Source of the DNA: Agarophyton chilense
Lineage: Eukaryota; Rhodophyta; Florideophyceae; Gracilariales; Gracilariaceae
DNA length: 64,000 nt
Assembly: GCA_030374765.1 (NCBI GenBank)
Contig: JARGXX010000105.1
Coordinates: 1,922,001 to 1,986,000, forward strand
Direction of reading: 5' to 3'
Shown: piece after piece, positions 20,343-62,970 of the stretch
Numbering within the stretch: position 1 is the first letter of the stretch
Layout of the letters: each line of letters opens with the position of its first letter
The notes under the pieces: model-generated
What the model saw: the letters and a program-made list of their open reading frames with translations, nothing else
Told to the model about the DNA's origin: nothing
Database searches by the model: none
Program-made: the position numbers and the translations under genes

Positions 20343-20436
20343 AGTGGAATGCCACTCGCTGAGCGATCGCGCTTGGCAGCCGACCAAAGAGAAGAATGCG
20401 AAGATGAAAATAAACCTGCATTAGGTGTGGATGCAC

Positions 20437-20957: not shown

Positions 20958-21180
20958 TTAAGCGCGAAGCACCGGCGAAGTAAGACCTCCTTATATACCG
21001 GAGCATGCATCGGCATCCCGGAATTCCCTTGTTTCCACGAAGGTACCAACTATATCGACTTGATCAGCGATGAACCCATACGCGTGGCACAACTCCAACA
21101 ACTGAGATGTACCCTGAGAGGGTCCTTACGCCAGCAATGGCTTCAATTCGAAAGCTGCGGCGCCTTCGGCCTTCCGATCA

Positions 21181-27668: not shown

Positions 27669-27766
27669 CTGGACCTTGGGTCTCCAAGCGCAGTAAGAAG
27701 GAGCAGAGTACTGTCTGGTCGTCTTTACAAGATGGAATAGGGCCGACCTTCTAGGGGTTCTCTCAC

Positions 27767-31200: not shown

Positions 31201-31383
31201 AGTAGAAGTGTTTTTCAAGGTATAATATAATCATATTGCTCCTGTTTGACCTGGCAGTCTTAGATAATGCCCTAAATATAATATCTTCGGGCGTGAAGAC
31301 TCTGGTACCACCTTACGGAGTGCTCCGTCTAGGATAGAACGATGCACTAGGTAACCCTTATGGTATATATCGTACTGCGATCC

Positions 31384-33888: not shown

Positions 33889-34149
33889 TGAGTATTAATC
33901 CATACTTGAACCAAATGGTATTGGAAGGCCTTCCGATTGGGCCCGGTTGGGAGTAGCCTTCACTGCAACTGGTTGGCGTTTTCCGTCTCGGGAACGGGCT
34001 CAGCTTTTGAGTTCTGTTTGTGACCAAATTGATCTTTTGGAATGCTATTGGGGGCACACTCGCATTCTTTTCCGGGCGAGCCGTTGCGGGTTGGGGACCG
34101 AAGACTTCCCGATGGTTCTGCTGCCGTACCTGTAGGAGCATGGATCGTA

Positions 34150-35470
34150 TCTGGGGAGATAAACAAAACCAGCAAAGAAGGTTGACTGTTGCGGGGTCTT
34201 TTATTGCCATTCTCGTTGGTTTTTGTTGGACCCTTTTAGGGAATGGCTTTTTTGTTCTGTATAAGGGCCGCCTTCCAACTGTTAGCATATGGCACTGAAA
34301 AAACCGGGTGGGATGGAACGAATACCATCGTTGAAGGAGTTGACAGTAATTCTGCTGGAATCCCACCAGATACTGAACTCGATGAGTTGGAATTGGGAAA
34401 CGAATGTTCCCCGACCTGAAAGATTTCGATCAGACGAATCACTTTTCTATGAGGTTTGTGCCCGGATGATCCGTCATCGGTCGTGGATGCTTCCTCAATT
34501 TCGAAAAAGGACCGTTTCGGTTTACCCTTTGTCTAATTCGGCATAGGAGCCCGTTCTCTTATCCGTATTCGTAGCGTATCTCCTAGGCCCTCCGTATAAC
34601 GCTCCAATGCGTTGTAATACAACTTACAGTTGGTACCAGGGTTAATTCTTAACTTGTGACCATATTGGTTTGTCAATGCTATCAGTGTACATTGACTTCA
34701 ACCTCGTGGTAGTAAAATCTCTACCGCATGGGAACGCCTTGGCCCGGAGCGAGCGTGCGTAATCCTATTCGGTTGTACTACTCGATGAAGGTGTTTGAGA
34801 ACCTCAAAGTAGGCCTCCTCAATCACCTCATCGGTGGGATAGGTTTCCAAGAGGAAGTTTACCCCATGGGGGTATGTAGTAAGCATTTTGTCTGTTCATC
34901 ATCCACCGCCATGATATTGCCCTGTAAGCGGTTGTGAAATATGTCGGCGGCTTGGTTTTTCAGATAAAATTGAAACAACCCCGTCGCAGCCCCTCCCGAA
35001 ACCCCATTTTGGTCACATTCTTTTCTGAACCTCTGAAGGAAGTCGATGATACTGATGGGGTCATATCCCGAAAAACTGGTACTTCCCTTCTGGAAACTAA
35101 GCTTCTGGTGATGATTATCTATCTTCTAGGCTACCTCCTTGATATAATCAGCGTTCTTTTTCTCGAACCTATAGCTGTAATAGTCGACCGCCTTTGTAAA
35201 AAAGTCGCTCGACGGAACGATCATCTCTAGGTCGAAATCGGTGTCAGAATCCGAATCCCACGAGTCATACTGTTTGGTCTTACCCTTGCGGTTATTTTCC
35301 TCTCCCAGCGACGGGAATCCTTCCTTTGTTTCCATGAACCTCTTCGGTTGTCATCCGTTGACCAACCAGAATCAGTTTCCGAGCTCAAAGAGTCAGGGTC
35401 CGACCGGTGCTCCTTTCTCTTAGCCCTTTCGGTTTTCTTCTTTTTCTTACCAGATTTTCATTGGTGTTGC
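34150..35470 (-). pseudogene. gag: gag of element D
   Basis: 35460-35126 matches the gag of E: a Lys-rich run (KSGKKKKKTERAKRK), a Ser/Asp-rich acidic part, then DLEMIVPSSDFFTKAVDYYSYRF (DLEVHQPLNDMFTTAVDYRTYRF in E). 34886-34698 contains NFLLETYPTDEVIEEAYFEVL (NFLLETYATDEVIQEVYSEGL in E). Near 34170 a CWFCLS string marks the first half of the zinc knuckle. Frames differ between blocks. The N-terminal 200 codons of gag and the 5' LTR are missing. Confidence 0.7.
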
Positions 35471-37239: not shown

Positions 37240-40200
37240 AAGAAGTGTCTGGAGCGAGCTGAGGACAAAAAAGAGGCTAAAATGGACAGTAGTTGTGGTT
37301 TAACAGTTAAGATTACGGTTCGAGAGCCATATGAGGGAAAAGAGTTCGTGAGAACCCTTCCTAATCATATTTCCATGCTCACAAAGGATGGGTATTTTTG
37401 CGGGCTCCACTTATTTTGGATATTTCGTGAGCCTGGTGTATTCAATGTAAGTGTTTGCAGACGCTGTCTGAAGTATAAGGCACCTCCAAGGGGAACGCGA
37501 TTCAAAGCTGGTTTTGTGGTGAAGGCCTTGTCAGACAAGATAGGTTGGATCATCAGTCAGACCCAAGGTCATGACCATCCGCGGACAGGTATAATGAAGA
37601 ACACAAGATAGAGGAGAAAGGATTCGGTGCGGGATTTCATCAAGAAAAAATTCCCTAAGGATCTACGTCTACCATAAATACACTTCAATCTGAATAGGAA
37701 GACTGGGACAGCTTCACAGCGATATATACAACCTAATGTTGAAAATCAAAACTCCGAAAAAGATTTCATTCCTTCAGTTTTTAACACAGATACCCAAATG
37801 AAAGCACAGTCCGTACTTTAGCTAGTGGAAATGCTTTCGTCTGCTCTGATTCGGAATGAAGAACCTCAACAGGTGAAAGAAGAATGCGGCGGCGAAGAGG
37901 ATGATGATGTTATATAAAAAGGAACACAGAAGGGAGATGAAAACGTTATATCTATCCATATTCCATCAAAGTTACGTTCCTACGATTGTGTAGCTCGATA
38001 CAAAAAGTTTTTCTAATGTTTTCTGGTTGGCATTCAGACACATTCTCGGGCAATCAAACATGAGAGTTAGCACTTGCAAGCGGAGGAGAGCAGTATTGAC
38101 GTATTTGATGATCAAGACCACGTAGGTAGGACTTATAAGAGGAGGAACAAAGTGTTGGACGATCGTATTGTGAAGAGGAGTGGGAGCGACAGGGTTTTGC
38201 GGCTTATTTTGAGATCTATGCAAGTGACAGTGGAGGACGAAGTCCTTCGACACCTGAAGTACATTTCCAATTGGTTTGGATTCGACCTATGCCTACGAGA
38301 CTACACTTATAAAAAGAAAAATGGAAAGCGATTGCTAATGAGAAGCTATCTACTTTGCATGATAACTACCGAAGAACAGTATAAATGTTCATTCTCCTTC
38401 AAAGTTCGCCGCTTTATTGTTTCTGGAAAGGAAGGAATAGAGGATTTGAAATGGGTTAATCATTTTCATATTTCGAAAGCTTATCACAACCACTCACCGA
38501 AACGCAGAGCGTTTCACCTAAAACTACCGCTTTAAATGGAGCGAGATACAGAACATCTTCATGGGTTTTTACATTTCAGGTTCTCGGAGATTGTAAAAAA
38601 CACTGAAGTCAAGTACGAGGTGACAGTGGAAAAAGATATCTTTCCAAAACGCTTGAATTACATTTTGGAAACGAGAAAGGCGAAGGATAAAGAGTGTATA
38701 CGTCTTTACAACAATTTTCTTGAGCTATAATCAGAAGAAGCATGTACGGCTGTTTATTGCTCTACATATGAGTCTTATTTGCTAGAATATGTGGCATGGA
38801 GCTTTCCACGACGACAAAAAGACTACAAGTGCTTAAAAATAGTGCCGGGAGTCTCTCTGGATTGCAAAGCGGTTGCAAACCGTTTCGGGCTCTCACTTGT
38901 CCCTTTGAATGGGCTTGATAACGATGGGAAAGTCGCGACATTCTTCATTGGCTTTCTTACACACGAGATATGTGCAAGTTTTGAATGGATTTTAGAATGG
39001 ATGAAAGACTGTACAAGGATCTGTCCCAGTTCCTTCGCCGTAGACAAGAGTACAGCTACTATTGGAGCACTGAGGAAAGTATTTCTACTTTCGTACATCA
39101 TTCTTGACGACTGGCATCTTAATCAGAATCAGAAGGGAAATGTAGCGAGATATTGTAAGAAATTCAACAGCACAGGGTGGTTCAGCCGTATGCAGACGCA
39201 TCTATATGACCTGGGGCGGCGTAGCACAGTAGATAAATTGCTACAGTGAAGATCACAGTTTGACCAAATGTACTTTGGAAACTTGAACCAGGTACTTCCA
39301 AGACGGTATGAGTACCTTTATCACGACAATCCTTCCTTACTTTTTCGTGCTATAAGGTTATACTTCTGCCTCGCAGATTCGGTTTCTAAAGAACTGGATA
39401 TACCGAATGATTAAATGCTCATTACCATCGTTTCATCGTCGCCCAGAATAACCCATTCGCTGGTGTTCCTGTTGAAATAAAAGCCCGCATAAACCGGTTA
39501 GATGCTCAACTCGAAAACGATATAGTAACACAAGACACCGTCATACGAAATCAACTGCTCGATCCGGTACTTCAAATTTCTCGAATGGTGGCCAATACTC
39601 TCGTCTGATTCCGTTACAGCATATTGTCCGAGAATTGTTATCCAGTCGAGATTGAGACTTTCTCGATACCTCCCAATCATGGACACATGCGCTTCTCCTG
39701 CGCGTGGTATCGATTGGAGATCTTTTGAGGTCAATAAAGAAAACTTCATACATCTCTCGACGCTTCTGTGACCTTGATGACCATCGGTTCTACGTTGGCT
39801 CCTTGGTCAATGGCGAGGCTACTCAGTCTCACCAACTATGTACTCTACGTACTCAGAGTGTCCAACGAGAATCCCACAATCACCGCGGGATGCACGTGCT
39901 AGTCTTTCGTTTCCGATGGATTACCATGCCCCTATTTGACTCGCATTGCCTGCGTATACTCTCAAATTGCATATCGATAGCTTCATGTTATTGATATAAT
40001 TGGTGCCCGGTTGCGAATAGAGGACCTTGGCATCCTCATTGGGACAGGAACTGCATGTTGTGAACGCTGGAGAATGTCTTAGTGCTTGGAGGAATGATGG
40101 GGTCGATCTCCCATTAAAATCTTAACAGATCCTCACACGCCGTCAATTTTACCACCATGCAACCAGATGCCCCAGAAGACGATAAATACTCTTTACCCCC

Positions 40201-45269: not shown

Positions 45270-46086
45270 TCATTCCATCTTTATTTCTCGCGTTACTTTG
45301 TCAACAGTACAACGGAACGCGTTCGCGTTCTGGTAAAGAAGTCCTCTTTGCCCCAGAGGACTATCTCTGACTTCATTGCTAACAAATGCTCGGATCATTT
45401 CAGTCATCTCGAGAGTAATTGAGAGGAGCGATTGGCTTTGGTTCCCTTCTTTCCTTCCTAGATCACTAAATAATAGATCTGCAGGAGCAGAAGAAGCTTG
45501 CGTAGACAATGTGGCTCTCGCAACAGTATTAAAAGGCATGGGACTGATCAGGCCCTGTCAACGTTTTGCCTCATTCCAAAAAAGCAGAGCGGCTCCAGGT
45601 TCTTTCCGGCCAGAATCTCCAATCGATCGCATTATGTGAGAATGGAACATACTGAAAACTACTTCAAGCTGGTGTGCGTTTGAGGACACGGATTCTTCAA
45701 GTTCAATCGCCTCGTTCACGATGGGTTTTTTTATAAAAGCTTCAAATATTCCTCCTTGCAGTCATTGGTACTGTCTAGAAAAGCCAGCGTGCATTCATTG
45801 ATATCCATCAAGGCGGAAATATGAAACAAAAAAGTGCGGCTGCTCTTTTGCATCATCCGGTCTGTCGCAACTCCGTTCTGCCATCCTGGTTGCCACAATA
45901 TGGCTTCTTCGTCCACATGCTCCCAAACATGCTCCAGCCTCGACTTGATACAATGAGCCAATTGTATGGATAGAGCCTTGGAATGGTTTTTTCGCAGTAC
46001 TTTCTGTCGAACCTCATCTCTTCATTTGTCGGAACCAGCGATACTGAGCTGCGTGGGCAGAGCACTGACCTCAAACTCTGCATCAT
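45270..46086 (-). pseudogene. hAT transposase, C-terminal half
   Basis: At 45560-45330 the minus strand reads FWNEAK, then a frame change, then LSTQASSAPADLLFSDLGRKEG and SLLSITLEMTEMIRAF. This is the hAT dimerisation region (usually PASSAxxERLFSxxG). The segment 46086-45731 before it is also coding-like but has stops. Its upstream edge at 46086 is the target-site duplication of element C. The frame continues from the other hAT half at 57762 once the element is set aside. In this family the region mediates the oligomerisation needed for activity. Confidence 0.75.
46082..46086. other. Target-site duplication of element C (left)
   Basis: ATCAT at 46082-46086 repeats as ATCAT at 57761-57765. 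The first A of the right copy may belong to the LTR end, so the duplication is 4 or 5 bp. Confidence 0.75.
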
Positions 46087-46861
46087 TGCAGGACAATGCC
46101 CCCAAGGGGGAAAACCTACGAAGACGTCCGGATCTTCCTCTCACGAGGTAGCCGGCGCGATAGAGCCCTCCCAGGGATCGGTGCGCAATGCCGGGTGTAA
46201 GTCGGAGCCGAACCGTCGCGACGGGCGCAGGGAGGCTTAAAGAAGCCGAGAATATCCGCCGAAGCGGTGCTTGCGTATCCTCTGAAGAGGCAAAACCCAC
46301 GAGAGTGGCGAGCACGACAGGTGTCAGTGCGAGCCGCAAGAGCGGGAATTTCCCAATAAAGGGGAGGAAAAGGGAAGGAAAATGGGAACGGAGGCAAGAG
46401 GGCGAGGTTGACCACGAGTTGCGAGAGGGGACTCGGGAATAGCCGGCACTGCCGGGTGTAGAAAACCGTATACACGGGCGGAACCACGAAAGTGGGAATA
46501 GATACCCAACACAAGAAGGATGCTTGAACGTCCAAGGGGGTTGGTAAGCCGTGCACCACGGGAAATCCCTCCGTAAGGAGTTGTATATTCGCGCAGGCAA
46601 TTCGACCCAGAGCCAAGATCTGGAACACCAAAATCACCCTTGTTGGGGAGACTTTACTGGACCGGCGGCCGCGTGGCCGGCGGCCTAAGTACTGTAGTCA
46701 CTGTAGAATAGAATAATTAAACTCTATCCTAAATAGCTAAATGTCCGTCTAACAAAGGGGCCAATCTGGCGGCCACGTGTCGGGCGGGACGAGGTTGCAC
46801 GCCGGAGGCTCCGGAAAAAACTTAAGTCCCCAAATACCTCCCTGGAGGACGTTGCTCTTCA
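46087..46861 (-). repeat. 3' LTR of element C
   Basis: 775 bp, the same length as 56987-57761. On the minus strand it begins TGAAGAGC and ends near CCTGCA (CCTACA in the other LTR). By hand I count about 17 differences between the two LTRs, all in the half nearer 46087. The 310 bp nearer 46861 look identical. Confidence 0.9.
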
Positions 46862-46907: not shown

Positions 46908-49139
46908 ATGGCAGCTCGTCATGATAAGAGCGCGTCCGACACCGGGTCTCCGGAAACCAACACACCTTCACCAAGGATCCCACGCCAGCTCTTCGCATCC
47001 GATTCCAACCACAACACACCAACACGCACCATGTCCAACCCCGACCGTCATAACACATCTGCGACTCCCGCCCTTGGCGGTTCCACCGGCTTCCGGTCCG
47101 CGCCCCACCCTGGGGATGTTACCAACCTGGCGTACGAAGACCGCCGTATTGGCGCCCGCTTTCGCGGACAGGCGAACCCACCGCAGTGGCCGACCTACGA
47201 CGCCCTTGTGGGTGCAAATCCGAGAACTCGGCATGGCTCCGCGATGTTGCGGTATGCGCCTTGGTTTCACCCATTGGCTGTCCGCGACGAGGATTTGATC
47301 CAATCCTACACCGATAATTCGGAGATGCTCCCGGGCGACCTGCCCGGCGTGGTGACCATGTCCTGGGATTGGCGTCATCGTATCCCCATCCCGGTACACC
47401 ACATACTACGCCGACGCGGTGAATCCTCTGCGGAGGCTCAGGCCGCGCTTGTGCGGATCGCTTATCTCAGGCACCATCAGGCGCCTTTCGAGTTCCCGAT
47501 ACCGCCAGAGGTCGAATTCGACGTCCACATTTACCGCACTCGCGGGGAAATGTCGTACTGTGACCGTCTTAACGGATTGGAAACCCTCCCTTTGAGGGGC
47601 ACACCGATCGCTCGGCAAGAAGCCCTTTGCTGGGTACGACCGATTCTTCGGGCAGAGTTCCGCTACCAACCGCGGCAGTCCCGCTCGAACTTCCTTCAGA
47701 ACTTCATCCGCGATGAGCGGCGTTGGAGGACCCGGACCGGGTATTTCGTACCGTACCAGAACACGGAGATTGAGCGCATCGCGCCTGCTCACCGACGTGG
47801 TCGGTACGTCAGTCTCCCAGACTGGTGGTCCTCCTTGGAGGCGTGCTGGGGTTGCTTCATTGAGCTGCCCCCAGTCTTCACCTATGTAGGGTCGTCGTTC
47901 TCGAACGATCCCCAGTCGGGGTGGTGGTCCGTCGTGGTAAGCGAATGGGCCGTCCGCACTGCGGCTTTTATCCTCGCTGAGGCGTACGACCAATACCGAT
48001 TGTGGTACGTGCCACCGCGTGTGCGGGCTGCGATCCGCCGTTTGGACATGCGCATCCCCCTCGGGGGCGAGGCGAACGAAGAAGAGATGCTGGGCCTCCT
48101 CGACTTTGTGGAGGGGGTCCAGTGGGATGAGTTCCCGCTGGAGAACTCCCAACGAATTCAACCGCGTCGCGGGTCTGGCCCCGGATTCGGGAGGAATACC
48201 GCGCTAGCGGGGGATTTCATCTACTTCGACCCCTGGGAGTACCACGAGATCAACCGCGAGGAAGCGGAAGCCAACCGGCATGCGCCGCGTGAAGTCCCGG
48301 CCGACCACCCGTGAGGGTATGTCGACTCGAGCGACTATTACCGCGACTATGCGAATGGTGACCCGATGGTCGACAACGAACCGGAGGATGCGGGTTACGC
48401 TCCGATGGAGGGTGACGAGTCCGGCGAGGCCGGTGAGGAGTCCGTTGAATACGGTGGTGCGGCTCCATCCTGGGCTGCTGTTAGAACACTGGTCAGTCGT
48501 TGAAGAGGGGAATAATCGTGACGGCCGAGGTGAGAGTTGGCCGGTCGACCAGGATTTATATAGACTATTGAACCTTCGAAGAAGAGGTCATAAAGAGTGT
48601 TTTCTAATGTATCATTCTAATTGGGTGCCGTGTGAAACATGGTTGCTTCCACGAGGTTCAATCGTGCATGCGTGTCCAATGCCTCGTTGTCACTTGCTCG
48701 ATGATGCTGACAGTGACAGCTTTGTTGATTGTGACAAGAATGTCATCTATAAAGTCATTGTGACGTGTGAGATGACAATGGTCCTTGAAATGACGATTAA
48801 GGTCAAAATGGATTATGGGACTGGACCGCCAAAGCACTGAAACTCAAATAACATACTTAAAGCATAGTATAACTAAATCATAACATAAATGCATAACATA
48901 ATTGACTAAAAATCATCTGAATTCCTAACATTGCTGATGCCGTGCGAACGGATTCCTATCCGACTCCATCGGTGGCAGGCTCGCCCGCAACCGCCGCTGG
49001 CGCGGAACGGGGCGACGTCATCGCGCGCTTCCTTCGGGAGGTGGGGCTTCGCCCTTCCGAGATCTCGGGTGATGTGGCCGCCATGCGGGATGCCTTAGCC
49101 AACCGCCTGGGCGGCGGTCCACCTCATGCGGAGGAATGA
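46908..49139 (+). CDS. Antisense accessory gene of element C (unknown family)
   Basis: The ORF lies on the strand opposite to gag-pol, between the 3' LTR and the end of pol. It starts 47 bp from the LTR edge. Codons 1-468 are open to a TGA at 48312-48314. The frame continues through an acidic stretch and, once the insertion at 48481-48931 is set aside, through a helical end (DVIARFLREVGLRPSEISGD) to a stop at 49139. The first roughly 110 residues are Ser/Pro/Thr-rich. The conserved core (119-410) shares blocks with the ORF of element B: WFHPLAVRDEDLI, YFVPYQ, GRYVSLP, IELPPVFTYVGSSFSNDPQSG, AEAYDQYRLWY. No membrane, signal or metal-binding motif is seen. Function unknown; it is not gag, pol or a recognisable env. 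Confidence 0.75.
48481..48931. mobile_element. 451-bp insertion in the accessory gene
   Basis: This AT-richer block is flanked by TGCTG at 48476-48480 and 48932-48936. Its ends are inverted (TTAGAA... and ...CCTAACA), like the TGTTAG/CTAACA ends of some copia LTRs. Without it and one TGCTG, the reading frame on both sides is continuous. A solo LTR or a small non-autonomous element are both possible. It has no coding capacity that I recognise. Confidence 0.6.
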
Positions 49140-49198: not shown

Positions 49199-49204
49199 AA
49201 TAAA
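49199..49204 (+). promoter_or_regulatory. AATAAA polyadenylation signal for the antisense gene
   Basis: AATAAA stands about 60 nt after the accessory stop on the plus strand and before the convergent end of pol at 49473. This fits a separate transcript for the antisense gene. The match is only six bases, so it is suggestive. Confidence 0.4.
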
Positions 49205-49472: not shown

Positions 49473-52400
49473 TTATCCCTCTTGGGCGTTTACCAGCTTG
49501 GCTGGGAGTTCGGTCCCCGCAAGGCGGTGGTATCGCATTACCGCAGAGCGCGGGAGGTGCTCGATGGGCTCCGGAGTGTCCCACTCCGGCCCGGATCCGT
49601 ACCAGTGGGTCCGGTACTGTAGCACCCTGTGCCCATCGTAGCTATGTCCGACGATTCGGTCGAGGACGTACTCCTGCACGTAAACTTGCCGGCCTTGCCG
49701 GGTGGTGGTGACCCGAGCCTCAGCGCCGCGTGGTGCTGGGCTCGTCGTCGCCTGTTCCGGGTCACCCGGTCTGTCATTCCGCTCTGCGGTTGTTGCCGGG
49801 TTGCCGGGGCTGCCGTACCGCTTCGCGGAAGTTGCCGGCGCGGCCGGGTTGTGTTTCCGCTGGGCGGTAGGGGCTTCCCTGAAGTCCCCCCTTACCGCGA
49901 GTTTGCGGGGGTCCTTCCGTCTTGGTGACGGTTCGCCGGAGGCCTCCGCTTGATTTGCGGCATGCGGCGTTCCCATTGGTGGGCAGTTTCCGTCGTGCAG
50001 TGCGCCGCGGGCGGTGAGTGGTTCACCGTCCCGGCGGTCTGCCTCTGCGGGGTGATTGTCAGCCAATGACCGGGATGCCGGATGCCCATTGGTCCGATCT
50101 CCCGCCCGGGTCACGTGACCTTGAGGACGGGTGGTCGGGCCGTCGCGGACGGTTGGCTCCGATTGTTCGGCAAGAGAGGCGGTTTTCGACTTGTCGTTGC
50201 GCCCCTTTTCCCCCATGGGGTTCGTACCGTTCTCAACGGAGTGGCTCGCTAGACCTGCTTGCGCAGCGCCCGCCGGAGTACCGGTATCGACCGAAACGCT
50301 CGGTGTGCGACTGCGAATGTGCGGGGAGCCCTTAGTTGCTTCCACGCGATGCGGAGCGTCCGTAGGGTCTCGCTTCCCGGCTTCGGGTCTTCGAGCGCCT
50401 CGGTTCCCCTTGCGTGGTTGCGTGGCGGGCGGATTGACCGCGGCGTCCCGCGGGAGTGGAGTGGCGTCCGGCGACGATGCCGGATGCCTGCTCGGGGGCC
50501 TTGCCCGGGGTGTCCGGTTAAACTTCCGTTGCGACGGCGATGCTTCCGCGATTGAGCGGGTTCCCTCCCCCTCCTTAGACGGAGCGACGGGTGATGGTGG
50601 GCTAACCGCATGGCGGGTATAAATACCGCTGCGCGGCGCCCGTAAGGGTAGCTGGCCGCGAGGGCCAGGTGTTTCCGGCATTGCCGGTGGTTCCGATAAA
50701 GTCGGTATATCGGAGAGACTCCGTGAGGGGTGCGGTACCACGGCGGGGCGTGGTGCCACCGTTGTACCCGTGGTATCTGAGGCTGTTTCGACGGGGGCTG
50801 ATGCGTTTTCCGCCTGCGGCGGTGGGGCGGCTACGATGCGGTCTTGTGAAAGACGTTCGTGGTCGCCGTTCTTGTCCACCATAACGGTGCCGGGGAGGGA
50901 GGACACGACCCGGAACGGACCTTCAGCGACAGGCGAGAGCTTGTGACGCTTGTCGGTCCGGGGGTTGTAGTACTCCCGGCGAACGAACACGTAGGTTCCC
51001 GGCTTGGGCGGTGCCGGTAGTGGTCTGCGTAAGCTGTTATCAAAATCCCGCTTGTAGGCGGCCTGGGCACGTTCCATGGACTTCCGGGCGACCGGTACGA
51101 GCTTGGTAAGCCAATTCTTCCACTTGAGGCGGTATTGACCCACGGATGGGAAAGAGGTGACCCTGTGTTGGGGTTCGACCGCCACTGGCGGGGGTGTCCT
51201 GGAGAGCACAAGATCGAAGGGAGTCAGACCGGTTGTCCGGTGAACCTGCGTGTTGTAGGCGTAGGTGATAGTATCAGAATAAATGTCCCACGTCATTGGG
51301 TGATCGGATACGTAGGAGCGTAGCGACGCGAGTAGGGTGCGGTTGAAGCGTTCCACCTGCCCGTTTGTTTGCGGGTGGTAGGTGGTAGTAAACAGGTTCT
51401 TGACGTCGAGGATGCGGCAGACGTCCTGGAAGAACTTAGAGGCGAACTGCTTACCGTTATCGGATAGAACCTCTATCGGAGGGCCATAAACGAACGCCCA
51501 GTGCACAACGAAGGCGTTCGCAACCGTGAAAGCGGTGATCTTCCGTAAAGGTACGGTGCGCACCAGCTTCGAAAAGCGCTCAGTGATAACCAAGAGGAAC
51601 TTGTTTCCCTTGCGCGTCTTGAGTAGAGTCCCGAGAATGTCAATTGCGACAAACTCGAGGGGCGCCCTTGCGGGGAAAAGCTTCATCCGTTTGGAGTGCT
51701 TCCGGAGTTTCACCCGGTTCTTTGCGCATTGGGTGCAGAACTGCACCGTAGCGTAGCAATCAACCGCCATAGCGGGCCAATAAAAGTCCCTTCGCAGGGT
51801 TAGATAAAGTTTTCTCCCACCGGAGTGTCCCCCGAGGGTCGGGTAGTGTGAGAGGTGGAGCACCCTGGTTTGCAGGGCGTGGGGGACCACGATCTGGGAT
51901 CGGTGGTCCACCGTCCGGACGAGGTAACCGATGTCGTTTACCTCGAACGGGAGGTCCTCTCCACCGTTTAGGCGGGCCCGTATGCGCGTGCAGAACGGGT
52001 CGCCGAACTGTTCTCGGATCATCTCCTCGGTGGAGATGGGTACAAAGGTCCCGGGTACGGGTGTTTCAATCTCGCGCGCTGCGAGTAGCTCATCCATTTC
52101 CATGGTGTCTTCCCCGGGTTCTGGCCAATCCGACTCCGTCGGTGTTTCCCCTTCCAAGGTAAAGCACGGGATCTCGTCGACCTCCGGGTCGGCAAGTGCC
52201 TCACCTGTCGTAGGTAATCGAGAGAGAGCGTCTGCTTGGGTGTTCTGGACACCCTTCTTGTGGACGACCTCGAAGTCGAATTCTGCTAGGCGGAGGCGCC
52301 ACCGCATTAAGCGGCCAGAATGATCTGCGATGTTCAGCAGCCACCTCAACGGGGCATGGTCCGTGTATACGGTGAAATGAACGCCCATGAGGTATGGGCG

Positions 52401-54763
52401 CAGAGTGGATAGCGCCCAGACCACTGCGAGGCACTCCTTCTCGGAGACCGAGTAGTTGCGCTCGTGGACGTTCAGCGTGCGGGACCAATAGCCAATTGGT
52501 TTGCGTTCCCCCTCGGGGGTGGTTTGGAACAGTGCGCAGCCCACCTGGTGGTCGCTGGCGTCGGTGTCGATGGAGTAGGGAAGCCCAGCTTTGGGCAAGG
52601 ATAGGATGGGAGCTGTCGTAACTGCCTTAATCAAGGAGCGAAAAGATTCCGACTGATCGGTGGTAAATGGCGCAAGCTTCGGTGGCTGGCCCTTCCGCAG
52701 TAGCGCGTTTAGCGGAGCGGCGAAATCCGAGAAACTCGGTATAAACCGTCGATAGACGTTGACCAGACCTAAAAAGGATCGGAGCTCCGTTTGAGTACGG
52801 GGCTCCTTCGCCTCGCAGAGGGACTTGATACGAACTTGTTCGATCATTACCCGTCCTGGACGGATGACGTGCCCGAGATACTTCACCGTGTCGGTGAAGA
52901 ACTCGCACTTCCTCAACTTGAGGGGTATTCCTGCGTCTCGCAGTACGGTCATCACGTCCCGCACGTGGGTCAGGTGATCGTCCAGGTTTCTGGAAAAGAC
53001 AATGATGTCGTCCAAGTAGACAAGGCACGTGCGCCACTTGAAACGCGACATCAGTATGTCTATTGCACTTTGAAAGGTGGCCGGTGCATTGGTTAAACCA
53101 AACGGCATCCGCTTGAAGCGGTAGGAACCCGAGTGGCAAACAAACGAGGTTTTGTCTCGGTCCTCTTTCCGGACTGGGACTTGCCAGTAGCCCCAGTTAG
53201 CATCCAGAGCCGTAAACACGGTAGCGTCCCCGAGCGAGTCTATACACTCGTCCATGCGCGGAATCGGGTAGGTGTCCCTCACGGTGACGGCATTGAGGCG
53301 GCGGTAGTCAACGCAAAACCGCCACGTGCCGTCAGCCTTGAGGGCCAGCACCATCGGTGAAGCCCAAGGAGATTGGGCGGGCTCGATGACTCCAGCACGG
53401 AGCATCTTGTCCACCTGAATTTCTTCCTCCTCCCGAGCTTTCGGTCCCGCCGTGTAAGGAGGTTGTGCAACCGGACGTGCGTCCGGTAGCAAGTCTATCC
53501 GATGTTCGGTTGTATTGATCTCACCCAGTGAGCCGTCCCACATTGTGGTAAACTCGCGTAGCATTCCGCGTAAGCGGTCCCGGTGTGAGACCGGTACATG
53601 ACTCAGGTCCAGGTCCTCGAGGGCCTTGATCGGGTCTATCTTATCGTAGCTCGTAGGCTGTGCCCTGATGTCAGGTGTGGGAACCGACGAGGTCGGAAAT
53701 GCATCCGTCTTGACGGTTTTATCGAGCGCCAACTGCTGTGCCTCCCCGGAGGTTTCTGCACCGGATACCGGGAGACCATCCTCGGTAGAGGGAGTTATTC
53801 CGAGTACTTCGGCAGCCGTCACCTTTGTAGGGAGCATCGCGAGCGGGTGCGGCGTCACGGACCCAATGACTTGGTTCTTTGCCAGCGTCTGGGGAGCCTT
53901 TCCCAGATTGGCAACCAACACCCTGAAAGGGGAAATCGGCGTGACTTGCACGATTCCGTTCGCAACGGTTAACTGAAATTTCTCGTACAACGAGGGCAAG
54001 GGCTGAACAACCCGAAGACCGTGTTGACGGGAATTGACTAAAACCATAACCTGGTTCTCGGGGGGTATGGTGACTGACGAGGCAACGCGTAGCTTCGTAG
54101 AATCCCGGTTCGCCGGTGTGGGTTCCTGCGCAGCAGGTAGAGGAACGTGTTTCCTCGATGCGCGCTTCAGCGGTTGACGAACAATAGGGACGGTCGATCC
54201 GTCCTCAAGTTCCACCTGCTTAAGGCGTGGGCGGATGGCTTCGACAAACCTGTCGCAGTAGTCACATCCCAGTATAACTGGCGCGGCAAGCGAGCGGCAC
54301 ACAATAAAAGTTAGTTTAACCACCATCCGCCCTAGCCTGACGACCAGGTCGATCACACCAACCGTTTTCAACGGGTTGTTATTGGCGTCTGAGACGTCGG
54401 GTACCGTTTCAGAACGGATGAGTGACCGCAATGGCGGAGGTAAAACCGATTCCACAATAAAGTTCGGCCCAGCACCTGTATCCAGGACAGTGAGATATCT
54501 CACCATAAACTGCGTGTGCAGACCAAGGTCAGCGTAAACCTTGTAGTTACGCTTGGCCATTACCAAGGCTCTATCCGGGATCCGGTTATTTCTAATCCGT
54601 ATCCCCGGTCGACGAAAAACACCGAGGTGCTTAGAGTCCGCGTCTGCGGTGTCCTTCCTTGTCAGGATTTTCACCGGGGAGCGAGGCATCGGCGCCTCGG
54701 GCGTCGTCAGCCTCAACTCTGAGGACGCCTCTCCCGAAGGGGAGACTCCCTCTATTCTTTTCC
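49473..54763 (-). CDS. pol: Pol polyprotein of element C (PR-RT-RH-IN-chromodomain)
   Basis: The frame is uninterrupted for 1747 codons from 54716 and open upstream to the slippery site. Domains, counting from 54716: aspartic protease (LDTGAGPNF, Asp 79); reverse transcriptase (residues 440-625, YLDD at 567-570); RNase H (DTDAS near 717-721, EKECL, YTDHA, QADALSR). Integrase follows, with zinc ligands His 957, His 964, Cys 994 and Cys 997 and catalytic Asp 1026, Asp 1086 and Glu 1122. After a GPF-type segment comes a roughly 400-residue Pro/Arg/Thr-rich linker. A chromodomain follows at about 1682-1730 (VQEYVLDRIVGH, YRTHWYGSGPEWDTPEPIEHL). Chromodomains steer integration to marked chromatin. 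All catalytic residues seen are intact. Confidence 0.95.
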
Positions 54764-56872
54764 CTGTACAGGGTCCTGGTCGGGCGAAGGCCCGACTTCC
54801 TCGGCAACGAGTGCATGATTCTGTTGCACGGTAGTTACCGCAGGAGCGGGTTGAGATTCACCAGCGTGGTTTGGCGCAGGTGCGGCGCGTGCCGGCTGAG
54901 CCGGTTCATACCGAGAATTCGGAGTGTGAGCCAATGCGTTGGAGAAGTCCCTCTTCGCGCGGAGATATGACGTGAGTGGCACGGAGCCCTTCTCCTGCGG
55001 GGAGAGGGTTTCGTAAGTATCCACCACTCGCGCCATATCGCGTAGCGATAAAAGGCATTGCGGGGAGGTGTGCCCGCGCTCGTAGCGCAAGTGGCACACC
55101 AACGTCACTCCCGCGTTTGGCGGTACGGCATTCCGAGCATCGGTGTATCTTCCGGGTTCCCGGTTTCTAACCCATCCAGGGCGCTGACTTCGTGTCATTC
55201 CGTTCGAGTACGGCATACGGGGGGCCAGAGTGCGGCGGTCATTGAGATAAAAGACCTGCCCGTTCTCCGTTTCCTTTGCGGTTGAGTCAACCGAGCCATC
55301 CGTCGTAGACGGTAATTCCGTTGTCGGAATAGATAAACCATCGTGATGGATGACATTCATATTGTCATAACCCTGTTTGGGGATGCCATCCGTCGCAAAT
55401 GACGGTGAAGAAGAGTCTGACTCAAGCAGCAATGCTTTAGCGGCCTTCGACCGGGTTCCTGGATTGCGTGCACGTAGTGCATCTCCCTCTGCGCGGGCAA
55501 ACTGTACGAGTTCAAGGTAGGTCACCTTCGGCTCTTGTTCCCTTTAACGGGCGACAACAGTCTTGATGGCTGGATCCAAGCCATCAATGAACATCGTACA
55601 GCGTTCCCCAGCGGGGTATACATTACCACAACGGTGGAAAGCCTTATTCAGGCGTACCGAGTAAACGGTCTCGAGCTCGCCGGAGCGTTGTCGAGTGTCT
55701 CGCGAAGCGAGTATCGCCGCTTGTATCGCGGAGCTGGTTGCGTAGGAACGCAGGAGGTACTGCACGGCCTCGTGCCAGCAGGTCACACCTCCTTCGGAGG
55801 CTCGCGACGAGCCCCGAACCGACAAAAACTGATCTTCAGGGACACCCCGTAGAAAGTAGGGTAGCGCCACGTAGGCTTGTCCTTCGTTCATTCCGAGTAT
55901 ATCGGCTTCCGCTACAAAGCGGTGTAGGAAATCCAAGACCAGAATTGGATCATCCCCAGTAAACGACTGGTTACGAAGTGAAAGCTGCATCCGCTTGATG
56001 CATTCTTTCACTTTACCCGTGTCACGCGGTGTCCAACCTAAAGAGGAATCTTCTAGACGGTAATACCGGTAGGACAGGAGTGTCCTGTAAAGAGGGTTGG
56101 TGGGCTTCAAGGGTTTGAGGCCCGGATGTCGCTGACCCTTGGGGCGCGACCGGATGGCCCCGTAGGTGGCAGAGGACCGCTTTGAGCGGGAAGAGCGCCC
56201 ATATCGATCCTGTGGGTCATCGCTCACCGACGAGTCGGAACTCTCCGAGTCACTCGGTTTATCGTCCGACTCAGACGATGAGTCGGACGGGTGTCCGTGC
56301 TTACGGTTAGAATCCCGGCTCTTCCGGCTCTTCCGGTTCCGCGACTGGGTCTCTCTATGAGAGACAACCGGTCTAGCCGCGTTCGCGGGCGAGGTTAACG
56401 TCCTCTCGACCGACTCAAGTCGGCTTCGGAGACGCTGGAAGCGATTCTCCATACCTTCTACGAAGGAAGACGGAGCGCCAAAACACTCGAGTAGTGTATT
56501 GACGTCCAACCGCAATACGCGGATATCCTCGGCTAACTCACTTGGAGGGGGGTTAGCGAGGCTTCCTCGTAAAGAGGTGAACTCCCTCGAGAGGGTATTG
56601 TGAGCAGCCCGCAGGGAGCGGAGCTGCTCTTCCAAGCGTACAATCCGCGCTTGGTCGACCAACCGCGGAGGCGGAGAAACCACCGTTGCGATGGTCGTTA
56701 ACCCGGAACCGGGCTGCGGGTCTTCAGTGCCGGTGACCGGTATCTCCCTGGAAGCCGGTGTTGGAGCCAGGGCCTGTGGAACATCAGTGCCCCTGGCATC
56801 ACCGCTTTGGCGGGAACGGCTGCGTGTTGCAAGACGCTCCATGCTAGGCGGTTTCCTTGGCATTGGCCACAC
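54752..56872 (-). CDS. gag: gag of element C, one in-frame stop
   Basis: A 442-codon ORF from 56872 is followed by a TAA near 55544. The same frame then continues to 54752, about 706 codons in all. It has a Lys/Arg-rich start (MPRKPPSMERLATRSRSR), a coiled-coil-like part (RLEEQLRSLRAAHNTLSREF) and a Ser/Asp-rich acidic part with Arg-Ser repeats. The capsid-like core holds LDFLHRFVAEADILGMNEGQ, YFLRGVPEDQFLSV and YLLRSYATSSAI. A knuckle-like CHLRYERGHTSPQC has Arg in place of the second Cys of CX2CX4HX4C. The TAA stands where A and B have sense codons, so it is a mutation. It would block Gag-Pol unless read through. Confidence 0.85.
54758..54764 (-). promoter_or_regulatory. Probable -1 frameshift slippery site gag/pol
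   Basis: Minus strand reads CAG GGA AAA GAA TAG in the gag frame. GGGAAAA is a canonical X XXY YYZ heptamer, six bases before the stop. Slipping back one base gives exactly the pol frame. About 12 nt downstream lies TCTCCC-CTTC-GGGAGA, a 6-bp stem-loop. Confidence 0.75.
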
Positions 56873-56986: not shown

Positions 56987-57761
56987 TGTAGGAAAATGCC
57001 CCCAAGGGGGAAAACCTACGAAGACGTCCGGATCTTCCTCTCACGAGGTAACCGGCGCGGTAGAGCCCTCCCAGGGATTGGCGCGCAATGCCGGATGTAA
57101 GCCGGAGCCGAACCGTCGCGACGGGCGCAGGGAGGCTGAAAGAAGCCGAGGATATCCGCCGAAGCGGTGCTTGCGTATCCTCTGAAGAGGCAAAACCCAC
57201 GAGAGTGGCGAGCACGACAGGTGTCAGTGCGAGCCGCAAGAGCGGGAATTGCCCAATGAAGGGGAGGAAAAGGGAAGGAAAATGGGAACGGAGGCAAGAG
57301 GGCGAGGTTGACCACGAGTCGCGAGAGGGGACTCGGGAATAGCCGGCACTGCCGGGTGTAGCAAACCGTATACACGGGCGGAACCACGAAAGTGGGAATA
57401 GATACCCAACACACGAAGGATGCTTGAACGTCCAAGGGGGTTAGGAAGCCGTGCACCACGGGAAATCCCTCCGTAAGGAGTTGTATATTCGCGCAGGCAA
57501 TTCGACCCAGAGCCAAGATCTGGAACACCAAAATCACCCTTGTTGGGGAGACTTTACTGGACCGGCGGCCGCGTGGCCGGCGGCCTAAGTACTGTAGTCA
57601 CTGTAGAATAGAATAATTAAACTCTATCCTAAATAGCTAAATGTCCGTCTAACAAAGGGGCCAATCTGGCGGCCACGTGTCGGGCGGGACGAGGTTGCAC
57701 GCCGGAGGCTCCGGAAAAAACTTAAGTCCCCAAATACCTCCCTGGAGGACGTTGCTCTTCA
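56987..57761 (-). repeat. 5' LTR of element C
   Basis: 775 bp, begins TGAAGAGC at 57761 (minus strand) and ends CCTACA at 56987. The partner copy is at 46087-46861. The 173-codon ORF inside it, present in both LTRs, has no recognisable product. Confidence 0.9.
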
Positions 57762-58841
57762 ATCATCTTCCAACGCGGCGGCTCTGGCAACTGTCATCTC
57801 CGCCACTGAGAAAGGCAATAAAGACCCGGACATAATCAATAAAGTTTCATAGAGCTCCCGAAGTAGCCTTGGCGACCTGGACATAGTAACCTTCCGACCT
57901 GCCTCGAGCTGTCGTGCAACCCGACGTACCTTTGTCAAAACGGCAATAAATTGAGCCAAAACGTTCTCTTGTCCTACTGAGAGCTGCAGGAGCTGGCTTG
58001 AGTCCATATTCATTTCATCTGCGATCGCTCTTTTATTTGAAATTCTTGAAAGATAACTTGACATGGCAGCCAATCTGGAATGCCAACGCGTTGGCACATC
58101 ATGCATGAGCTTCAGAATCCGGTCTGGCTTCATACGTTCCTGTAACTGCTTTTCAACCAGAACTGCGCTGCGCGCTGATGGTGATTGAAATAGGATGTGA
58201 CTGCATTGAAATGCTCTAATTACCTTGCCCAAACAGACCCTTCCGTTGATACATCATTTACAACGAGCGACATAGTGTGCACTACGCATCGATTTGATCC
58301 CAGGTAATTCGTCATCAAATCAACGGCGAGTGCAGTAGCGGATTCATTGTTGCTTGTTGCTGTGTGAACACGGATCTTATCGGACCATATGATAGGGTTT
58401 TGCTCAAGAATGTGTTCGATGATACTCCGGAGCTGCTGCCCGGTTTTCGTGACAAGGCCCATGTTCGGCGTTGCGATAGGTACAAATGAGAGCTTCCAGT
58501 CGTAGTCTATGTAATGCCAAGTAACCACCAGAATTGGCGCCCTGAGAGCCGCGCCCCATCCATCCACTGTTATGCAGCCCGTTTTCCCGTTCGTAATCGA
58601 GGCCTTGAGCATTCGACAAACGGCAGTATACGTTTCGTGCAACATCTTTCCCATTCCCGTATAGCTGGAGAAGCGCATACGGCCACCCAAAATGTCGATC
58701 AAACCTTGTAACAAAGGAGATACAACTTGCGTTGAAGGTGTTTCGGTGGCGCAGGCACACAGGATTATTCCAACAGATTGTAAGTGTCGTATAGTGGCAG
58801 AAGGTCTGGCCTTTGAGGTTGTCAATATACTACATTGACCC
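57762..58841 (-). pseudogene. hAT transposase, N-terminal half
   Basis: From 58841 the minus strand reads TTSKARPSATIRHLQSVG (end of a BED-like region). Next come CITVDGWGAALRAPILVVTWHYID (first catalytic Asp and the hAT W-x-H/Y block) and VHTATSNNESA, where the second Asp of a T-D-N motif is lost. RCVVHTMSLVVNDV follows (CxxHxxNL-like). After a frame change near 58225 come DVPTRWHSRLAAMSSYL and the helical insertion domain, to AAALED at 57762. The 5' end is cut by the LTR of E at 58842; the 3' part lies at 45270-46086 beyond element C. The transposase is dead. Confidence 0.8.
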
Positions 58842-59418
58842 TGTAAGTGATGGGTGCGCGGGATCATCGGCCATGCAGCTCCGGGCGAGCTACCATCTAG
58901 GTGTTGTCAGCCACGTGTAGTGTTGACTTGTACCTTCTGGTTGAGTAATTGTTAGTACTTGTAATTGTAATTATATTTATTTTAGTAGAGTAGTGGAGTG
59001 GCCACCTGGCACTGTAGCCAGTGCTGGACAGGTCTCTGACACTAGGTCAGAGACCGTGCCTTGCTTGCACCTCCCGGGAGATCTGGAGAGTGCAGTCCAC
59101 CGCACATAGGGAACTGCACCCCCCCCATCCTCATCTGATAAAGAAAGGCATCCCTTGGGTCACGACTATACTTTTTGGTTCATCGTTTCTCAACTACCAT
59201 ACAGGCTTTCCCGCGCGTCGACGCCTACCATCGTTCACCTACACGGTATAGGCTAGTTGCCCCGCCGTTTGCCCCTGCGGGTTTTCACTGTGCCCTGTTA
59301 CCATCGAGGTTTATTACGTCTACCTTCTAAGGTTGAGCGTCAAAGCGCTCCCTACAGTTTATCGTCACTACGCTCCCGAGATAAGACAGTAGCATACCCC
59401 ACAGGTGATTGTACGACA
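58842..59418 (+). repeat. 5' LTR of element E
   Basis: It starts TGTAAGTGATGGG (58842; a start at 58848 or 58851 is also possible) and ends GTACGACA. It aligns with the LTR at 1-568. It interrupts the hAT coding sequence. Confidence 0.85.
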
Positions 59419-59421
59419 TTT

Positions 59422-59435
59422 TGGTCTCCCGACTT
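59422..59435 (+). other. Primer-binding site of element E
   Basis: TGGTCTCCCGACTT, 3 nt after the LTR end, identical to those of A and C. Confidence 0.85.
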
Positions 59436-59721
59436 AGAAAGTATTTTTAGGTTTCGTCGTACTTTCACAGTTCACACGAGATTCCGAGAAGGATTGGACG
59501 CTCGTACACCTCTTTGGTTTCAGGAAATCCCGCAAAACAATATAGGATACCACTATTGGTCACAAATGGAACGACCTAAAAGGAATACGCGCGGTGCAAG
59601 CGCCCCGCCAATTCATTGAGGTCCTAAAGGAGCCCCATCGGCTCAACCGATTCTGGAAAACCCCGAGCAGCTGCTCGGGCACCCTCGGGACAAAACCGTA
59701 AAGGTAAATGGTCTGCCGCCT

Positions 59722-61640
59722 ATGGCAACGGAACCTCGAAGGGAATTACCAATTGAGGTTGCAGCGGAGGAGCTATGGCCTCAGCTCGAAGAGCGAGCGA
59801 GAGCGCTCGTCATCCTCGCGGTCGAGGATGCAATAACCGTAAAGGAGAAGTCGGATACCCGGATGGTTCCGCCCTCAATGGATGTCGATGCATTTACCCG
59901 TATTGTGGTTGACCGAGCAGCTCAAGAGCCATCGGACAGGATACCTGAAATGGTGAAACAGTATCTCTTCACAGATGATAGAAAGTATGTTTACCGTGAT
60001 GTGCAGGACCTTTGGGTTTCCAAGGGATTCGCAGAATCCCGACCTAAACAGGTAAACATCGCAAAGCGCATACCACAAGGGTTCCAAAAGGGTCATTCCG
60101 CCCATTCCAAACACTTACCTACTGCTACTGAGTACTTACAAGGTCCAAGGCATAGTCAAGAGGTCCCGGGGAAGGTAGATCCTCAAGACATCTATCGGCC
60201 ACCAATTACTGGTTTCGTTCAAAATGATAACCATGGAGGTAGTCCCAAGGAAGATTCGTCTGACTCGTTGGATGAGCGACGAAGAAACCGAAAAGGGAAG
60301 AAGCGGAGGACGAAGAGGGGAATGAATCGAGAAGATGATACAGACCCCGACTCGTCAGACTCCAGTTCCAATACGAGTTCATCGTCGGATGATGACCGCA
60401 AAGGTAAGAAGAAGAAGAAACCGAACAGGTCGACGAAGAAGTCGTCGAAAAAGACCCGTAAGGGTAAAAAGCGATACAGTGAGTCGCCCGACTCTGAGTC
60501 GGAGAACGAAATAGACCTGGAGGTGCACCAACCGTTGAACGATATGTTCACCACAGCGGTTGATTACAGGACTTATCGGTTTATCAACAAGTCTTCTGAA
60601 TACACCCAAGAGGTCGCTCAGAAGATTACTAAGCACCACAAGAAGCTCGGCTTCTAAATGAGTGACACAACCTTCACAGGTACGGATTCTATTGCGGTGA
60701 TTGATTTTCTACAGATCTTCAAGATTGCATGTGACCAAAATGGGTTTTCCGAGGGCGCTGCTATGTGGCTATTTCAGTTTTAACTTAAAGGACAGGCATA
60801 CTACTTGCTGCGGGGTAGGCTCCGCGGCAATACCTTAGCGATGGATGAGGATGGCACAGAGATGTTGGAGTCATAGCCAGAGGTGGTCAATTTTCTTTTG
60901 GAAACATACGCCACCGATGAGGTTATCCAAGAGGTTTATTCGGAAGGCCTCGCCTACCATCAAAGGTCTGGGCTAGCCGAATCGGAGTTCTCGCTAGCGC
61001 TGTGGAATCTGGCAACCCGCTGTGGTAATGTGTTCACTACCTCTAGATTAAAGTCGCTATTTGCCGACAATGTCGACAAAGCGATACGTTCCCAGGTACG
61101 CAACTACCTGGCCACTAACCGAAAGGTAGAATACAATGGGCTGGCTTGGTACTCCCAGGGACTTGGAGATACCCTTCGGCTGGGAAAGAGACCAGGCATG
61201 CCTCCAACCTCGAAGGATAAATCGAAAAGGTCAGTCTTGGAAATTGAAGAAACAACAACCTCAGAGGGTAGCTCGCACATCGAAGTACCTACAGGAACCG
61301 CTATCCACTTGGTAGCGACCCAGGGGCGGTTCTCGAAACCTTCGACTGTAGAAAATTGGTCGTCAACGCGTACACCAAACTCGGTGCAATCGCCGCCAAG
61401 TGCGATGAGCTCGCAGAGGATGCAGGGAGCTAGCTCCCATAACTCGCCACCCACATCCTACGCCACTGCTCCTACCAACCAGGTTTCGAAGCCCCCCTCA
61501 ATGGTATCGCGAGACCCCCCAAACTGGAGGCCTCGTTTGCTGGTTCTGTCTCGCGACAGACCATTTGGCAAACAATTGCGCTAACTTACCTCCAGGGATG
61601 AGAGACCAGTCGATTCAGGGTCGCATGCAGAATCACCAAC
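59722..61640 (+). pseudogene. gag: gag of element E, broken by stops
   Basis: A 311-codon ORF (59722-60657) holds a Glu-rich start, a Lys-rich and Ser/Asp-rich low-complexity middle (about residues 180-255) and DLEVHQPLNDMFTTAVDYRTYRF. The same frame continues after stops near 60655, 60782 and 60874 into 60883-61584 (NFLLETYATDEVIQEVYSEGL, LWNLATRCGNVF). Near 61510 a C-run marks a shift into the next frame. There a perfect CX2CX4HX4C zinc knuckle is read at 61538-61579 (CWFCLATDHLANNC). The knuckle binds RNA in such proteins. Element D carries relics of the same gag. This gag is unrelated by eye to that of A, B and C except in general layout. Confidence 0.8.
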
Positions 61641-61764
61641 GCCTCTATGGGTCTTAAACGCAAGCACCAAATAGGTTCCAACCCCGTACACCGGTACAGG
61701 TCAATACCATCGAGGAAACACCAAACTTGGACTCAACCCCTCCCGTACAGGAGGAAAACGCCGA

Positions 61765-62870
61765 ATGGTTGGCGTAATGGCCGAACCCAACCTGCAATTG
61801 GAAGGCCAATCGATACCCAGAACCTTTAAGGTGGAAGAGAACACGTCACAACCAGTTCCAGTTTGTCATATGAAGTACAACAACTGTAAAGTACGTGCTT
61901 CAATGTGTTTCTCCGATCGCCTTGCGGTTCCGGTCACCTGCGTGCTGGATACAGGGGCCGGCCCAAACTTCCTGAACTCCCGCGTCATACCTGAGGCGGT
62001 ACTTCGGAACTTGAGCCGACCTCCCGACAACAACCCGGTGGTGGATGCAAATGAGCGCCCATTATACCTTCGGGGTATGCTCACCACTGTGGTGCAGCTC
62101 GGACACCTCAAGGTAAGACTGCAATTCTTTGTTGTCGACTGTTTACCGACAAACTGCCTACTAGGTACGAACTTCATTGACAGACATGTCAAAGCAATCC
62201 TTCCTGGTTCCCATACCGTCATCCTACGTCAGAAGGGACAAATTGCCATTTTAGGTAATACGGAAACCAAAAGGGGATGGTTCGTCAAACCGAAGAAGAC
62301 GATATCCACCGAAACGGTCTCCAACAAAGTGCGAATTACCAAACAAGTTTTTATCCCGCCAATGCACCAAATATTGGTACAGGTGTCAGGTGCGACCCCC
62401 GGGCTGGTCATACTACAAAACCATCCGATGGTAGCACATCAACACCTCACCTTGATGGCCAACGGGATTGTCGACAACATCCCATATCCACCCTCTAAGA
62501 TGTGTCTCAGCAACTTCAGCAGTCAGGACGTGAAGTTGCCGAAAAATACCAATGTTGGCATAGCACTACCGGCACCATAAGGGGTCTTCACCGTAGCTCA
62601 CAATCATCTCTGCGAGGTCGCCTTCGGTAAGGAAGGGGGGTGCGCAAATGCGTCCACAACCACAAAGGTATCGATAAATACCAACTTGGAAGCGAAGCTA
62701 ACCGATAAGGCATCAGTAGAGAAAGAAGAAGAACTGGAACCTGAGAGGCAATGGAAAGATACAGTCCAGATCGGTGAAGAAAACGGCAAACTGCGGGGCC
62801 GAGTTATCGACCTTCTGGAGGAGTTCGAAACCATGTGGTCAGGCCATCTGGGCCAAATTAAGGCCACATA
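61765..62870 (+). pseudogene. pol: Protease region of pol, element E
   Basis: LDTGAGPNFLNSRVIP (61945-61992) is the aspartic protease active site. LLGTNFIDRHVKAILPG follows, the second conserved block. The frame ends with TAA at 62578-62580 but continues in the same frame through a Lys/Glu-rich linker to a TAG at 62869-62871. LLEEFETMWSGHLGQI lies just before that stop, the usual segment ahead of the RT. The frame matches that of gag before its shift, so pol probably follows gag by a -1 step in the intact ancestor. Confidence 0.8.
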
Positions 62871-62970
62871 GAATCGCATCGAGCTCCTCTCGGACTCGAA
62901 GCCGATTTATCAGCAACCATACCGTGCAGGTCCAAAGGCGAGAGAAGTAAAACTCAAAGAAGTAGAGCGA

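Follow-up and report, generated by a model that had tools for sequence, protein, structure and literature searches.

An antisense gene under purifying selection in Ty3/gypsy chromodomain retrotransposons of the red alga Agarophyton chilense

The window analysed here is the whole stretch of 64,000 nucleotides of Agarophyton chilense DNA. One of its retrotransposons, termed element C, occupies the minus strand with the following parts:

46082-46086 and 57762-57766, no strand: target-site duplication ATCAT of element C
56987-57761, minus strand: 5′ LTR, from the LTR pair, its ends and the target-site duplication
54752-56872, minus strand: gag region, two ORFs
49473-54716, minus strand: pol with reverse transcriptase (RT), RNase H and integrase, from Pfam
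49530-49670, minus strand: chromodomain at the pol C-terminus, sub-threshold here and above the cut-off in the related locus L051
46862-46873, minus strand: polypurine tract beside the 3′ LTR, from the sequence, within the antisense leader
46087-46861, minus strand: 3′ LTR, on the same evidence as the 5′ LTR, and putative seat of the antisense promoter

The two LTRs are 97.7% identical. The domains of pol follow the order RT, RNase H, integrase and the best PDB match is Ty3 Gag-Pol (E = 4e-113). The gag region gave no significant Pfam match and is assigned by its position and its likeness to the other elements of the window. The polypurine tract appears as a C-run on the plus strand, and a similar C-run occupies the same place in the copies shown from four families. 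The chromodomain model PF00385 scores 16.6 bits in element C, 13.8 in L056 and 26.6 in L051, the only one of the three to exceed the Pfam cut-off of 25.1. By its LTRs, target-site duplication, domain order and chromodomain, element C is a Ty3/gypsy LTR retrotransposon of the chromodomain group. A chromodomain Gypsy element of Ectocarpus has been reported outside the chromoviruses (PMC12477816).

Opposite gag-pol, between pol and the 3′ LTR, element C carries a gene which in its complete form encodes a protein of about 590 amino acids. The earlier note had proposed an antisense accessory gene in a chromodomain Ty3/gypsy element, and the chromodomain score of L051 supports this assignment. The window copy of the gene is arranged as follows:

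46908-48311, plus strand: antisense accessory gene, first 468 codons, from the ORF list, genome matches and selection
48312-48314, plus strand: in-frame TGA interrupting the window copy; 14 of 18 other aligned C copies are without a stop
48315-48480, plus strand: continuation of the gene, acidic linker, from homology
48481-48931, no strand: 451-bp insertion, with target duplication TGCTG at 48476-48480 and 48932-48936
48932-49139, plus strand: end of the gene, a C-terminal helical-looking segment resembling the C-terminus of the homolog P0002; stop at 49137-49139
49199-49204, plus strand: AATAAA, candidate poly(A) signal of the antisense gene, 59 nt past the stop

The window copy is therefore broken by a stop and an insertion. 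A long antisense ORF had been described at 46908-49139; its location opposite gag-pol and between pol and the 3′ LTR stands, but it is not one continuous frame, since a TGA lies at 48312 and homology runs to 48480, is interrupted by the 451-bp insertion and then resumes to 49136. Of 19 other C copies checked, 16 showed both flanking words, and the insertion is missing from all of these (L005, L010 and L018 could not be scored). It is AT-rich, is bordered by the 5-bp duplication and has no second copy in the window or in the loci examined. Splicing of the window copy was considered and rejected: the segment 48481-48931, missing from every other scorable C copy, was inserted and has left a target duplication, and a single ORF encodes the full-length homolog P0002. 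A 117-residue protein of Agarophyton chilense is 91% identical to the window ORF. Direct homologs exist in Gracilariopsis chorda (BWQ96_03215, BWQ96_10156, BWQ96_05177) and in Gracilaria domingensis (FGB62_50g12), where the listings name them only as hypothetical proteins.

Two further elements of the window are relevant to this gene:

21067-22743, plus strand: decayed antisense gene of element B, from homology, its extent set by a B-family query
20435-20948, minus strand: LTR-like repeat adjoining the element B antisense gene
22941-23144, minus strand: chromodomain region of element B pol, convergent with the antisense gene
58801-64000, plus strand: element E, with its 5′ LTR at about 58801-59418 and a pol extending past the window

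For element B, a homologous ORF had been proposed at the same antisense place (21181-22745). The homology is firm, with 368 amino acids aligned to the C protein at 35% identity (E = 2e-58); the proposed frame is decayed, with six in-frame stops within an extent of 21067-22743. Element B lies within a large inverted duplication whose arms (14569-20436 and 23486-29354) are 95.5% identical and arranged tail to tail. LTR-like copies in opposite orientation accompany it at 13154-13667 and 20435-20948, and aberrant reverse transcription or fold-back possibly produced the whole structure (14569-29354). In element D (30383-34366) no copy of the antisense gene was detectable, and the 3′ end of this element may be lost. 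Elsewhere in the window, a gag related to that of element C is present at 5327-6981 on the plus strand and a MULE transposase domain at 38779-39246, also on the plus strand (Pfam E = 1e-6). The ORFs at 7991-11848 on the minus strand weakly resemble a tyrosine recombinase (Phage_integrase, E = 0.002) and RT (E = 0.006) in Pfam, both below threshold, and may belong to a DIRS-like element.

The genome assembly (79.8 Mb, 135 contigs) was searched for further copies. For the C-type gene, 59 of the best 91 matches among 1852 candidates are stop-free over the aligned 468 amino acids, the window copy counted, and stop-to-stop frames in the fetched C copies extend to at most 679 amino acids. For the B-type gene, the best 150 of 1416 candidates were scored. 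Two further families related to C were found with the query P0004 (best 98 of 1693 candidates scored); they are called 652 and 650 after the open frames in L051 and L052. The C-terminus of pol lies downstream and faces the antisense ORF at every one of the 20 C loci, at 27 of the 30 B loci and at both loci of the other two families, the C and B sets each including the copy of the window. The three exceptions in the B set (L026, L032, L046) have no pol match. No relatives were retrieved from IMG/VR (query P0002) or from a prokaryote collection (query P0005), as expected for an algal element.

In 14 of the 18 aligned C copies the antisense frame contains no stop, and the other five frames carry a median of 3-20 stops per copy; the openness of this frame in the C family is thus greater than chance. 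Decay is common in the B family, where the whole frame is stop-free in 2 of 30 copies with a median of 3 stops per copy, and the other frames have a median of 10-24.

Substitution ratios were computed for 18 C copies, after one identical copy (L008) had been dropped and the broken window copy (L001) excluded. In the C family dN/dS is 0.489 in the frame of the antisense gene and 1.05-1.18 in four other frames; the fifth, the minus-strand frame in which third positions are mirrored, gives 0.605 and has a median of 20 stops. In the B family (30 copies) the ratio is 0.358 in the gene frame against 1.09-1.61 in four others, and the minus-strand frame mirroring third positions gives 0.472. The fetched copies were the best-scoring ones and selection bias was a concern, so the ratio was also computed outside the part of the gene used as query. 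There it amounts to 0.42 and 0.37 in B; the C tail shows a weaker 0.74, and the C core 0.33. The frames are not discriminated among the four long-open B copies, which give 0.66 in the true frame and 0.66-0.77 in three others. Between families the ratio is 0.26-0.37 and third positions are the most changed, with dS near saturation.

Comparison with pol gives a scale for this constraint. In the C-652 pair dN/dS is 0.26 for the antisense gene versus 0.10 for pol, which indicates that the gene is held more loosely than the pol enzymes; eight of the ten pol pairs were saturated and yielded no ratio. The C-terminal stretch of C pol is a poor yardstick, with 0.72 in its true frame and 0.70-0.84 in three others. 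The earlier note had named dN/dS as the check on the antisense gene and constraint on the sense strand as the alternative. The antisense ratios, 0.49 over 18 C copies and 0.36 over 30 B copies in rounded form, bear the gene out, and no sense-strand frame is open in its region. Purifying selection acts on the antisense reading frame.

Element E represents a deeper lineage. Most of the antisense gene is missing from it, and a remnant is found at the window-equivalent positions 66362-66583 in L053. This remnant, an ORF of 81 amino acids, recurs at the best 150 of 289 candidate places with open frames of 93-876 amino acids. We considered that the E lineage might lack the gene; this was rejected once the remnant ORF had led to frames of 842-876 amino acids in three sister copies (E1, E2, E3). 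A sister copy 92% identical to element E over 2.5 kb of DNA, the end of pol included, has an antisense frame of 856 amino acids at the same place. The three E-lineage proteins match the accessory family in a three-sequence profile search (E = 5e-16, 3e-13 and 5e-12), and the best BLAST match between the two groups, P0005 with E3, has an E-value of 1e-13. Their core is collinear with that of the accessory family and the motif GFRSxPxP is common to both. Pairwise dN/dS among E1-E3 is 0.56-0.66 over the whole ORF and 0.45-0.68 in the core. Among the best 125 pol places and the best 150 antisense places of this lineage, 61 pairs lie within 8 kb of each other; in all of them the gene is opposite to and downstream of pol, and there is no pair in any other arrangement. 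The two LTRs of element E are 98.2% identical though most of its antisense gene is gone. Element E may have inserted fairly recently and could rely on antisense protein supplied in trans.

Over the RT-integrase region, identity is 50% between C and E, 50% between C and B, and 41% between B and E; the corresponding pol tree has seven rows and is unrooted. As identity among the carrier lineages is only 41-50%, the association between gene and element is old. The antisense gene is protein-coding, and it occupies the same place in the same orientation in C, 652, 650, B and E. Its presence in all of these disposes of the concern that it is a captured fragment limited to the copies first noticed. 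The wider idea, that the gene was captured from the host or rides as a passenger and does nothing for the element, draws on the fact that no family is recognised for the protein and on the transductions described for LTR elements (PMC7264820). We consider it very improbable, given purifying selection within and between families and the occurrence of the gene in lineages with 40-50% identity over the RT-integrase region.

The encoded proteins share a common plan. An N-terminal low-complexity part with GFRSxPxP precedes a core that spans some 320 residues, has many W, Y and R, and contains the signature EWW/PPV..Y.GS/EW common to the families. Outside the E lineage, a low-complexity and mostly acidic tail follows, with a net charge of -12 to -23 in five of six measured proteins (650 was not split), and the protein ends in a short helical-looking segment. 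No significant match was obtained in Pfam, NCBIfam, PHROGs or PDB sequences (best PDB E = 0.39), in agreement with the earlier note, which had recognised no family. Nine C-terminal peptides were scanned separately: the best hit, Clp_N, stays below the cut-off (E = 0.01 in P0002, 0.15 in P0003), Ish1 appears in two (0.05 and 0.3), two other families appear once each and three peptides have none. We draw no reading from these hits, and a UBA-, SAP- or LEM-like C-terminus was weighed by eye only.

The large conserved core and the site between pol and the 3′ LTR, which is the position of env, could suit a structural or envelope-like accessory acting in the particle or in cell-to-cell spread and placed on the opposite strand incidentally. 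An envelope-like ORF would have sense orientation and a transmembrane segment, whereas this gene is antisense and no transmembrane-like stretch was found in six proteins, the best 19-residue hydropathy means being 0.93-1.57. Together with the lack of a significant Pfam or PDB sequence match, this makes an envelope-like role quite unlikely.

A further property of the protein is its scarcity of lysine. The counts are 2 of 591 residues in C, 5 of 644 in 652, 7 of 608 and 7 of 618 in B and 650, and 1 of 617 in P0002; depletion is weaker in P0005 (20 of 648), P0008 (7 of 383) and the E lineage (12-17 of 842-876). The pol of the same elements contains 4.3-7% lysine and the C gag is intermediate with 2.7-3.2%. 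Codon-position composition predicts 10.9 lysines in C (2 seen), 12.7 in 652 (5 seen), 11.8 in B and 11.7 in 650 (7 seen in each). Scarcity beyond composition is thus clear in C and 652 and modest in B and 650. The C gene has 2 in-frame AAR codons against 45 GAR, and 11 and 5 AAR in the other two frames. The ratio of lysine to arginine in the C protein differs from that of pol (Fisher p ~ 1e-7, with sites taken as independent), and arginine-lysine exchanges across families are less frequent than in pol (14 of 180 basic-basic pairs versus 98 of 533).

A lysine desert denotes a protein without lysine sites for its own ubiquitylation. The lack of lysines may keep the antisense protein from being ubiquitylated. 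One may go further and suppose a desert kept by selection in an adaptor that works near the host ubiquitin machinery, for instance delivering silencing factors to a ligase while escaping ubiquitylation itself, and transcribed from a bidirectional LTR. This proposal is speculative and we hold it to be a long shot; if true, a retroviral-style accessory strategy would be encoded in reverse by a seaweed retrotransposon. In any case, the lysine scarcity is a concrete and testable clue to function.

The start of the gene is closely tied to the LTR. Along the plus strand, the last two letters of the LTR are CA; next come the complement of the polypurine tract and then the ATG. The ATG lies 46-47 nt inside the LTR boundary in C (46 nt in the window element), 35 in 652 (L051), 24 in B (L048) and 79 in 650 (L052), the boundary outside C being set by the CA/polypurine motif and not by an LTR pair. 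In E1 the distance between the LTR match and the opening of the antisense frame is about 100 nt. At the other end, the distance from the stop to AATAAA is 59 nt in C, 52 nt in three B copies and 35 nt in L051; in L052 of the 650 family no AATAAA follows the stop. The poly(A)-site motif of C, GAGAAATAAAA, is present in 19 of 20 C loci, and AATAAA occurs in 14 of 30 B loci within a 350-nt stretch around the gene end.

Because there is little room for a promoter between LTR and ATG, we infer that the mRNA starts in the 3′ LTR. Judged by this spacing, the simplest reading, and probably the correct one, is that the 3′ LTR drives antisense transcription. The mRNA would start in a bidirectional LTR and end before pol, so that this unit and the genomic RNA would converge. 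Silencing may draw on transcripts made antisense to LTR elements (PMC7264820), and the functional unit might accordingly be the RNA itself, acting as dsRNA, as siRNA or by interference, with an incidental ORF. Such a purely RNA-based function is extremely improbable in view of the frame-specific selection, the placement of the start and a lysine scarcity that is expressed at the amino-acid level.

Taken as a whole, the best explanation, to which we give a probability of about 0.55, is a selected antisense accessory gene of gracilariaceous Ty3/gypsy chromodomain elements which is transcribed from the 3′ LTR and encodes a regulator acting in trans. The protein would probably act in the nucleus, where it would control the expression of its own element, the fate of its RNA or its integration. 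This nuclear or regulatory role is suggested by analogy, the proposed function being likened to that of HTLV HBZ or of maize Grande gene23.

A regulator could also restrain its own element as a form of copy-number control, kept by selection between element lineages. The gene is conserved across families, 28 of the 30 B copies do carry stops, and antisense placement would allow production independent of gag-pol. A pure inhibitor should be easily lost through selfish selection, yet most of the best C matches are uninterrupted over the aligned part of the frame. We judge such self-limitation unlikely.

Antisense accessory genes are already known from Tat-type elements of plants, from one group in fungi and from retroviruses like HTLV. 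In plants, such ORFs, placed between pol and the 3′ LTR, are described for Grande, RIRE2, Retand and PvRetro13, and Boty is listed with them (PMC7264820). The TRP28 ORFs (PF04195) of Retand/Tat elements are described as conserved, present in most copies and without known function (PMC11963269, PMC7264820). The earlier note had cited the antisense ORFs of Tat-type elements and had left the fungal cases unmentioned: Boty elements of Botrytis cinerea carry an additional antisense gene, brtn (PMC7264820, PMC8365987). The likeness to brtn, an extra antisense gene in a fungal LTR element, is one of description.

In layout the gene resembles those of Retand, Grande (gene23) and RIRE2, for which a conserved ORF in most copies is described, opposite to gag-pol and located between pol and the 3′ LTR. 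The red algal gene shows traits by which the aORF-3R class is recognised, namely position, orientation and presence in most copies, together with conservation and selection. Retand has been placed among the non-chromovirus lineages, in flowering plants, whereas the present carrier is a chromodomain element of a red alga, and PF04195 gave no match at E ≤ 10 in any of nine members scanned. The promoter of maize gene23 is said to lie in its upstream region, while here the ATG stands directly beside the LTR.

HTLV-1 HBZ is a small bZIP protein translated from a spliced mRNA. The algal proteins differ in being encoded by single ORFs of about 600-860 amino acids without a significant Pfam match, and no bZIP family is found among the Pfam matches of the antisense proteins. 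The likeness to HBZ is one of working principle, an antisense unit with a promoter in the 3′ LTR, where the HTLV antisense promoter is located (PMC7264820) and where we infer that of the algal gene.

No paper listed from an open-licence library describes, in its title or the opening of its abstract, such a gene for Gypsy elements of red algae. What appears to be new is a selected antisense gene in red algal chromodomain elements whose protein matches no searched library. The hundreds of copies offer a system for testing the function of antisense accessory genes. As an old component of abundant red algal chromodomain elements, the gene suggests that the layout shared with the plant, fungal and retroviral systems, a regulator read backward from the 3′ LTR, evolved more than once.
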